Shown here one piece after another: positions 26,249 through 28,393 of a stretch of 64,000 bases of DNA. Source of the DNA: Thereva unica (lineage: Eukaryota > Arthropoda > Insecta > Diptera > Therevidae); the NCBI GenBank assembly GCA_949987705.1, contig OX465282.1, positions 61,687,922 through 61,751,921 on the forward strand. The letters are read 5' to 3'. The notes beneath the pieces were generated by a model. It made no database searches. It was given only the letters and a program-made list of their open reading frames with translations, and was not told the origin of the DNA. The first letter of the stretch is position 1, and each line of letters starts with the position of its first letter. A program made the translations under genes and the position numbers.

Positions 26249-28393
26249 TTAAGATAGTAATCTTCCCTGGTATATCTCTAAAATCATTTTCAGCCGAAAA
26301 TATTTCATATGTTGCTGTAAGAAAGTTATCTCGAGATCTCTAGTAATGTACTCGGCAAACATGCAGCTAAAAACACCACAATCATTGCCATTCATCTGTT
26401 TTGGAACGTTTTTAACGCTTTCTTTAACGAAATCGGACGTGTCGAAACTCTCATTTCGCTTATCTAATGATTCTTCCTTAATATAATTATCGAGGGCTTC
26501 CAATACTTTTGGGTTCGGTATGCCTCTTGAATCGTAATATTTAATATATTTAACTCTTAAGTGAATGATTGCCATGCACCAATGTACATCGCCAATATGG
26601 ACAGGTACAGGGAGAATGTCATATGAAAATATATCAACTTTACGAGTCCATCGACTCACAGAACTATAACCAAAATTCATAAGCTTTGTAGCAAAGAACG
26701 TGTTCATTGCGTAAACACGTGGAAGACCTGAGTGACGTTGTTCTGAACGTTCGGCTAAGAGATCCATGTAGAAGTTGATAACGTTATCGTTCAACCAGTT
26801 TCCGTCATTGAGAGTTAAAATGTCTTTTCGCGTTATTTGCATATTAAATTTTCTAATTAGTACTTCGTCTCCGGATCCTCCATGAGTAGCTTTCTTAATT
26901 AAAGCACGCTGGTCTGAGGTCAACTCCGGGAATTCGTCTGATTTCCTAGCGTTTTCTTCCTTTTTATCGTTTTCCTTATTCTCATCACCATCTAAATTGG
27001 TGATTTGCGGAATTTTCTGTTTAAATTTTTGTTTCCCTTTTATTCTTGCTTTGTGTATTTTCTTGTTATTGTCGGTTAACAGTGTATATTCGTTAATTAC
27101 CTTAACTTTATGTTTGCGGAAACGCGGTGTTAATTTATTTCTTTTACATTCTTTCCTAAATATAACTTCATCTATTTCCCTTTGCTCAGGATCCTTTCTC
27201 GATACATTTAACTTATCTATTTTATTGTTACTTAAATTTTCTAATTGTTTTTGGACAGAGGGGTATAGTTCTGGATACTCGTTTAGTTTTCTTAAATATT
27301 CGTGCTCATTGTTGAAGCTTACGTTTTCGTTAAATTTATACGTTCGGCCATAGAATAACTCGAACGGAGTGAATTTAGTCGCAGAATGAATTGCGTTGTT
27401 GTATGTGGTTATGCATTCTGATAGAATTTCGATATGGTCCAGGTCAAATTTGTTATCTTTGAATTTCTTTACTATGATTCTATAGATTTCTGTCAGCGTG
27501 GAGTGGAGACGTTCTACGGGAGAGTTGCTTGTCGTTTGCTGGAACGACGTAAAATGGAGATTTATATGATATTGTCTGCAAAAGTCTTTGAATAAATTTG
27601 ATGTAAATTCAGAACCCTGATCGCAGACTAATTTTTTTGGTATGCCATGGTGGCTCATGAAATGCTTGAGGTGCCTAACTATTGAGATGCTATTGTGAGA
27701 AGGAAGGGTGTAGGCACAAGCGAATTTGGAAAACTTGTCTATAATCGTTAAGATTTGTTGGTTGTTAATGCTGTATATATCTGTATGTAAGATATCTAAT
27801 GGTTTTATGGGCATTTTTGGTTTAAGGAATTTAACTTTTTGAGGGTGTCTGTCGTATTTAAGGGCCTGGCATTCTTCGCAGTTGTTGACTGTTTGGGCTA
27901 TCTTGTTCCGCATAAAGGGAAAATAGTACTCTCTCTTTAAGTGAAGTAATGTCTCCTCTATACCTCTATGATTATTATTTATGTGGTAATTGTTTATTAG
28001 TTTATCTTGATCGTCATTTTCCTTGATGTCTATTAAAATTTCCTTACATCTAACTATTCGAAAGGTGTTGTTATTTGAAAAATATTTTGAATACATTGAT
28101 TGGACCAATTTAAAGGACCCATCATCCGCAGCTATTGCGGTTAACTTCCTAGGTGGCAAGAATTTCTTAAGTATATCTAATACAATTTCTTGCGTAAATT
28201 CTGGTTTCCTTATTAGCCTACGTTGTTTGTTCCTAAATGGTGTTTCTAACGACATTTCTGGAGTTTCATTAGACTTCTGTAGTATTAATTGCAGATTGAA
28301 TTCATTAATAGGTTTTTCGGATATTGAGATTCCATCATTCAGGTTCTCGTCCGTTGAATGGACTGTGGTACCACTGGTACCTTGCACTGACAT
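26249..28393 (-). CDS. Integrase fused in frame to a SENP/Ulp1 SUMO-specific protease domain
   Basis: This is a 714-residue open frame; the same frame stays open about 90 bases upstream of this Met, so it is really the end of pol. The integrase zinc site is His137, His142, Cys172, Cys175. The catalytic core is Asp205 (HTD), Asp258 (CDQ) and Glu294 (VER). The usual Gypsy integrase tail ends near residue 455. After a lysine/glutamate-rich linker, residues 486-714 form a complete peptidase C48 domain: EFPELT, RKDILTL, NWLNDNVINFYM, His604 in VHW, Asp621 in YYDS, Gln666 (oxyanion hole) and Cys672 in GNDCGVF, ending at EIYQGRLLS. His-to-Asp spacing (17) and Gln-to-Cys spacing (6) equal those of human SENP1 as I know them. 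There are no stops or introns. Predicted activity is SUMO removal or maturation; its role in the element is unknown. Confidence 0.93.
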   Translation of the reverse strand: MSVQGTSGTTVHSTDENLNDGISISEKPINEFNLQLILQKSNETPEMSLETPFRNKQRRLIRKPEFTQEIVLDILKKFLPPRKLTAIAADDGSFKLVQSMYSKYFSNNNTFRIVRCKEILIDIKENDDQDKLINNYHINNNHRGIEETLLHLKREYYFPFMRNKIAQTVNNCEECQALKYDRHPQKVKFLKPKMPIKPLDILHTDIYSINNQQILTIIDKFSKFACAYTLPSHNSISIVRHLKHFMSHHGIPKKLVCDQGSEFTSNLFKDFCRQYHINLHFTSFQQTTSNSPVERLHSTLTEIYRIIVKKFKDNKFDLDHIEILSECITTYNNAIHSATKFTPFELFYGRTYKFNENVSFNNEHEYLRKLNEYPELYPSVQKQLENLSNNKIDKLNVSRKDPEQREIDEVIFRKECKRNKLTPRFRKHKVKVINEYTLLTDNNKKIHKARIKGKQKFKQKIPQITNLDGDENKENDKKEENARKSDEFPELTSDQRALIKKATHGGSGDEVLIRKFNMQITRKDILTLNDGNWLNDNVINFYMDLLAERSEQRHSGLPRVYAMNTFFATKLMNFGYSSVSRWTRKVDIFSYDILPVPVHIGDVHWCMAIIHLRVKYIKYYDSRGIPNPKVLEALDNYIKEESLDKRNESFDTSDFVKESVKNVPKQMNGNDCGVFSCMFAEYITRDLEITFLQQHMKYFRLKMILEIYQGRLLS

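Follow-up and report, generated by a model that had tools for sequence, protein, structure and literature searches.

The 64,000-nucleotide window analysed here, a stretch of contig OX465282.1 of the fly Thereva unica, carries on its minus strand a long reading frame (26249..28393, window positions) in which a Gypsy-type integrase is followed by a complete SUMO protease domain of the SENP1/2 type (peptidase C48), and which lies within an element resembling the errantiviruses. The frame encodes 714 amino acids from its ATG and is open from stop to stop up to position 28486, corresponding to 745 residues; the window sequence is free of any N. In Pfam searches of the frame, Integrase_H2C2 (E = 6e-13), rve (E = 2e-12) and Peptidase_C48 (E = 1e-44) all pass their cut-offs, and comparison with solved structures matches the front part of the 745-residue frame to foamy-virus and Ty3 integrases, and the frame also to human SENP1 (E = 7e-75, over residues 515-744 of 745) and human SENP2 (E = 9e-57). 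Because of the strength and extent of the SENP1 match, the C48 identity of the frame is far beyond chance, and together with the Pfam matches it bears out the description of this interval in a first-pass annotation as one frame uniting the two domains.

The integrase portion comprises the zinc-binding domain PF17921 (27857..28012, on the minus strand like every feature of the element described below; residues 159-210 of 745), and the core domain PF00665 (27548..27805), which holds D205 and D258, with E294 just downstream. The zinc-finger residues H137, H142, C172 and C175 are present and all three acidic residues are kept (residue numbers here and for the protease count from the ATG). A charged linker (26933..27028; about residues 487-518 of 745), delimited from the translation and from the end of homology to SENP-free sister Pol proteins, leads into the C48 catalytic domain (26252..26932), assigned by Pfam, structure matches and alignment, with H604, D621, Q666 and C672. 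In a residue check, all seven catalytic positions named in the first-pass annotation proved to be placed exactly. The codon-position G+C content differs slightly between the integrase and SENP parts of the frame, a difference that decides nothing, and an Rfam scan of the window returned no match.

The junction between the two parts is marked by comparison with relatives. The nearest integrases to that of the window, P0161-P0188, are 56-65% identical to it, the unannotated Pol P0161 at 65%, and all are without C48 (according to precomputed Pfam lists, among the best 120 of 173 matches). Eleven SENP-free sister Pols share an HK(A/S)(R/K) C-terminus of the integrase and stop no more than about 30 residues from it, and the homology of the window frame to five SENP-free Pols breaks off at residues 482-489 of 745. 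The catalytic part of the protease starts near an FPELT motif, at the place of which the host-type Ulp1 protein P0001 has FPEFT. This part of P0001 matches the window at E = 1e-106, with nothing else better than E = 1.9, and its N-terminal 455 residues find a best match of only E = 4.9, so that the rest of the host Ulp1 was not found in the window. The SENP domain is about 66-70% identical to the best eight listed dipteran host Ulp1/SENP1-type matches (70% to P0001). These observations suggest that the element took only the catalytic domain of a host Ulp1/SENP1-type protease, in frame behind the integrase; the capture proposed in the first pass holds, by sequence, to the extent that a catalytic domain of dipteran Ulp1/SENP1 type stands behind the integrase of an errantivirus-like element.

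The surrounding element is bounded by a pair of 287-bp long terminal repeats (LTRs; 5' LTR at 39657..39943, 3' LTR at 24270..24556), which are 97.2% identical, with 8 mismatches and no gaps; no target-site duplication of these outer LTRs was seen on reading the flanks. Between them the minus strand presents Gag-like frames, protease, reverse transcriptase (RT), RNase H, integrase-SENP and env, which is the Gypsy-type order. The Gag-like frames (38168..39189) are broken and recognised by position and look only, with no Pfam match, and the aspartic protease piece (37641..38000) is read from a DTGA motif and two Pfam matches, both below cut-off. The RT is present as an N-terminal piece upstream of a nested insertion (35154..35988; from reading, 35086-35976 being without a Pfam match) and a piece downstream of it (29185..29492; from reading of the translation), which ends in an in-frame stop. 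An RNase H piece (28474..29184; Pfam), 80.8% akin to P0166, follows, with a frame break at its low end. The env region consists of a first frame matching Baculo_F PF12259 (25511..26173; 40 bits versus a cut-off of 24.1) and a second resembling Gypsy env PF07253 (24624..25526; E = 0.0003, below cut-off). Just before env, a pyrimidine tract with an AG at 26145-26146 (26145..26161) reads as a possible env splice acceptor, in which case SENP would belong to the unspliced Gag-Pol message. The paired LTRs, the RNase H and RT pieces and the Baculo_F env piece back the errantivirus label of the first-pass annotation.

The insertion within the RT (29493..35149, minus strand), identified from repeats, target-site duplication and Pfam, is a nested younger LTR element and not part of the SENP element. 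Its 560-bp LTRs (29493-30052 and 34590-35149) are 100% identical, it is flanked by a 4-bp CGGT duplication (29489-29492 and 35150-35153), and it is a very young Gypsy-type element with a 951-residue pol frame and a DUF7041 frame. Some 1.6 kb that separates the protease piece from RT (about 36000-37640) lacks pol-like frames and is probably another insertion. Further damage to the SENP element comprises the in-frame stop that separates the RT piece of pol from RNase H, together with two frame breaks, one ahead of the integrase-SENP frame and one in env. The window SENP sits inside an errantivirus-like element, and, taken as a whole, this copy is dead because of the nested insertion in RT, the pol stop and the frame breaks in pol and env, with the integrase-SENP frame intact. 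A domesticated host gene was considered for the window frame and is not favoured, given LTRs that are 97% identical and the pol and env pieces that flank the frame.

The same arrangement recurs elsewhere. A search with the SENP domain found P0115, a protein of 1254 residues with RT, RNase H, H2C2 and C48 domains, and a search with the P0115 integrase found 41 proteins, of which three (P0115, P0121 and P0123, hereafter the trio) carry C48. C48 is found behind the integrase, at the same place as in the window, in at least these three of 158 related integrase proteins; among the best 120 of 173 matches of the window integrase, P0115 is the one that has it. A fresh Pfam scan confirmed the domain in P0115, P0121 and P0123 (E = 6e-46, 5e-40 and 2e-41, respectively), in each of which RVT_1, RNase H, H2C2 and C48 lie on one chain, and found no C48 in P0122, P0124, P0161 or P0165. 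Among 155 proteins measured, a tail of more than 200 residues past the integrase match is seen only in the trio, the next longest being 92 residues, and the four longest tails outside the trio are integrase C-termini with short extensions. A fear voiced in the first pass, that the fusion might be a one-off, is contradicted by this distant lineage with the same order and with its catalytic protease residues kept. The trio, known from proteins alone, may be domesticated host genes. A search of viral contigs found nothing related to the window frame or to P0115.

The fusion count is a lower bound, since the absence of C48 from the other 155 proteins is read from precomputed Pfam lists, with a fresh scan for four. 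Furthermore, the SENP search (best 120 of 280 matches) and the search with the window integrase covered proteins up to about 1304 residues (1.75 x 745). Most SENP-free Pols in the lineage of the window have 1074-1203 residues, and the linker and SENP add about 258; most SENP-bearing close sisters would therefore exceed about 1304 residues and could have escaped the searches.

The integrase of the window is only 30-33% identical to those of the trio, which are 65-74% identical among themselves. The separate integrase and SENP trees proposed in the first-pass annotation were built, the former as a large tree by a quick method (156 rows: 155 of the 158 proteins, three short matches being dropped, plus the window) and as a careful tree of 54 rows chosen from these, the latter from 75 rows including 71 out of the other 119 proteins that the SENP search listed, of which 33 are unnamed and were taken as host genes. 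On both integrase trees the fusion label has to change at least twice, on well-supported branches, and a single integrase clade for the four fusions is rejected (54-row tree, approximately unbiased test, p-AU 5.5e-41). On the SENP tree, the window domain groups next to Ulp1 proteins of syrphids and schizophorans (93/80; the branch is not starred), with the trio in a clade of its own (98/97); a tree that keeps all four fusions in one group is worse by only 0.31 log units (p-AU 0.481) and the branches are long, such that the SENP tree separates the two without rejecting a single origin. Host-rare SENP residues are common to the window and any of the trio at 2 columns, and within the trio only at 12. 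Columns that distinguish Cyclorrhapha from other Diptera divide 3 against 4 for the window domain and give no backing to its place on the SENP tree. Taken together, the sequence comparisons make two separate captures probable, in preference to one capture followed by transfer between lineages.

Selection on the SENP domain was assessed against the 71 host rows, in which H, Q and C of the active site are invariant and D is kept in 68 (Asn in 3); all four residues are intact in four of four fusions. At the 74 host-conserved columns (97% or more of host rows in agreement) the window domain has 3 changes, P0115 9, P0121 7 and P0123 14, compared with 61, 71, 82 and 91 changes, respectively, at the 150 variable columns (Fisher p for conserved versus variable columns: 6e-10, 1e-7, 9e-12 and 3e-9). 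Three long-branch host rows, used as a control, have 7, 1 and 2 changes at the 74 conserved and 69, 75 and 48 at the 150 variable columns. Within the trio, SENP identity (51-58%) is lower than integrase identity (65-74%), indicating a fast-evolving domain. If the trio clade is real, its divergence took place after capture, and the constraint there therefore speaks for a working protease. It is predicted with near certainty that the SENP domain has been captured and is catalytically competent.

The integrases of the trio have themselves been altered. The second catalytic Asp, present in 152 of the 156 rows, is Gly in P0115, P0121 and P0123, all of which have the YLDD motif of RT and the RNase H motifs; the sole other exception is P0266, with Asn, and the sister Pols P0122 and P0124 have Asp. 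By parsimony, the gain of SENP and the loss of this Asp fall on the same branch. The Gly in this second lineage raises the question of how such elements integrate.

In its LTRs, its protease-RT-RNase H-integrase order and its Baculo_F-type env, the window element resembles the errantiviruses and other Gypsy-group endogenous retroviruses of insects. Unlike these, it has C48 behind the integrase, a feature otherwise found in the at least three related proteins described above. A literature search combining Ulp1, peptidase C48, SENP or SUMO with errantivirus found no SUMO protease in an errantivirus among the matches listed, in agreement with the statement of the first-pass annotation that none was known, and the word SUMO does not occur in the main text of PMC12992720 or PMC13172572. 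That statement omitted a near precedent in Ginger1 DNA transposons, in which, as the available text of PMC2836005 describes them, a Gypsy-like integrase bears a Ulp1 or OTU protease domain at its C-terminal end. The window frame is alike in pairing a Gypsy-like integrase with a C-terminal Ulp1, whereas Ginger1 elements, according to the same text, are cut-and-paste elements with terminal inverted repeats and a stand-alone transposase. The window element, in contrast, has RT, RNase H, LTRs, env and a Ulp1 of dipteran host type (70% identical to P0001), and membership of Ginger1 is ruled out by the first four of these; RVT_1 is also present in P0115, P0121 and P0123. No terminal inverted repeats surround the frame, the three short inverted pairs (26-28 nt) within 23000-45000 not framing it. 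Mutator-like and other transposons also bear an Ulp1 domain (as cited in PMC2836005), but they appear from that text to be DNA transposons in which Ulp1 is not part of a Pol polyprotein. The domain of the window is like that of host dipteran Ulp1/SENP1 in being whole and in having the H-D-Q-C residues, and differs from the host protein in that the N-terminal region is missing, with an integrase in its place. The pairing of integrase and Ulp1 has a precedent in Ginger1, and its occurrence in an errantivirus-like Pol appears from these comparisons to be new.

With regard to function, we favour, at about even odds, the proposal that the captured Ulp1/SENP1 domain serves as an extension of the integrase that strips SUMO from the integrase and from proteins on the incoming DNA. 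A fly errantivirus-like element would have gained only the catalytic domain of a host SUMO protease, in frame at the integrase C-terminus and upstream of env. Synthesised at the end of Gag-Pol, the domain would be packaged into particles and enter the nucleus joined to the integrase or cut from it. There it would remove SUMO from the integrase and the proteins on incoming DNA, such that host SUMOylation would be unable to block integration. Acting in cis, the protease would make the element independent of host SENP, which is our first choice for the window, and action in cis on the integrase or the integration complex is a plausible main role, at somewhat less than an even chance, with activity, packaging and target presumed. 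Work on human immunodeficiency virus (HIV) is consistent with this proposal: in the available portions of the reports, when producer cells are treated with SENP inhibitors, entry and reverse transcription can still take place and integration is impaired, in dependence on integrase SUMO sites (PMC4672295), and HIV integrase is SUMOylated and carries SUMO-interaction motifs that it needs (PMC6446281). Several observations weigh against the integrase-extension proposal, however. Expression, packaging and activity of the SENP domain are all predicted, and the window copy is broken outside the integrase-SENP frame. The constraint figure of the window domain also covers its time as a host gene, and in this domain two substitutions lie close to the active site, M>R in YYDSMG as well as S>N in NGSDCG. 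Some constraint is relaxed, because the fusions are changed at more of the 74 host-conserved columns (as many as 14) than the long-branch host rows are, and constraint in the trio, although real, is somewhat looser. Finally, because Gly occupies the second catalytic position in all three trio integrases, keeping the integrase fit for integration is not the whole story there.

The principal alternative, which we consider unlikely although deserving of attention, is that a Pol-borne SENP acts in the nuclei of the gonad cells that produce the element, where it would deSUMOylate effectors of PIWI-interacting RNA (piRNA) silencing (Panoramix, Su(var)2-10) and allow transcription of the element to escape heterochromatin. 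Counting against it, Pol is a minor, packaged product that is made only after transcription, and a tie between SENP and these targets is unsupported here. The alternative does account for the retention of SENP alongside an altered integrase active site and for its fast evolution in the trio. Furthermore, in the sections available of PMC13195609, Panoramix silencing in fly ovarian somatic cells requires SUMO, and endogenous deSUMOylases cut a SUMO-GG fusion off Panoramix, with most silencing lost; the Su(var)2-10 SUMO ligase also ties Piwi to SetDB1 (PMC7272611, in part). On the other hand, yeast Ty1 RNA is reported in the accessible text of PMC8585004 to rise on loss of Ulp1 function or tethering, and more deSUMOylation therefore need not help a retroelement. 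An extended form, which we regard as speculative and improbable, is that fly errantivirus-like elements repeatedly recruited a host deSUMOylase as a Pol-delivered counter-defence, and that one lineage gave up its integrase active site on the branch of SENP gain, the Pol C-terminus becoming a SUMO-stripping effector and sister elements supplying integration in trans. That the domain mainly binds SUMO-marked chromatin and steers integration, with cleavage secondary, is very improbable: chromodomains and other targeting modules occur in other retroelements at the integrase C-terminus, the position of SENP here, and SUMO binding is natural to a SENP, but the catalytic residues are all kept in four of four fusions and the trio integrases are without one catalytic Asp. 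A functionless passenger, arising as a chance retrocopy in one copy or as an assembly join, would fit the single, broken copy seen in the window's lineage, and the slight difference in codon-position composition fits recent acquisition. It is nevertheless improbable, as three Pols of another lineage have the same order and the join is in frame, at domain borders, inside LTRs and in a window without any N; as the main explanation it was rejected on account of the second lineage.

To our knowledge, hardly any accessory enzymes of host origin are known from errantiviruses. The presence of SENP at the same place in two distant lineages suggests selection and provides an example in which an arms race of the SUMO system with an insect retrovirus can be tested. 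A SUMO protease would be a pointed choice, as piRNA silencing of transposons in the fly ovary works via SUMO according to the available parts of PMC13195609 and PMC7272611, and SENP activity is also relevant to HIV integration (PMC4672295, likewise in part).

Several other repetitive features were observed in the window. A second errantivirus-like element (45470-53403, plus strand) has long gag, pol, integrase and Baculo_F env frames and no SENP match. A third (15942-21230, plus strand), with LTRs 99.4% identical over 483 bp, also has no SENP match, and its integrase piece shares 52% identity with P0153, within the broad lineage of the trio. Tandem repeats with 102-bp and 64-bp spacing occupy 44116-44911. 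Plus-strand features at 59469-62382 and 2450-3037, listed jointly, comprise frames with DUF1759 and DUF5641, which we take to be as in BEL/Pao elements, and a frame with THAP and TNP-like matches, presumably as in P elements.
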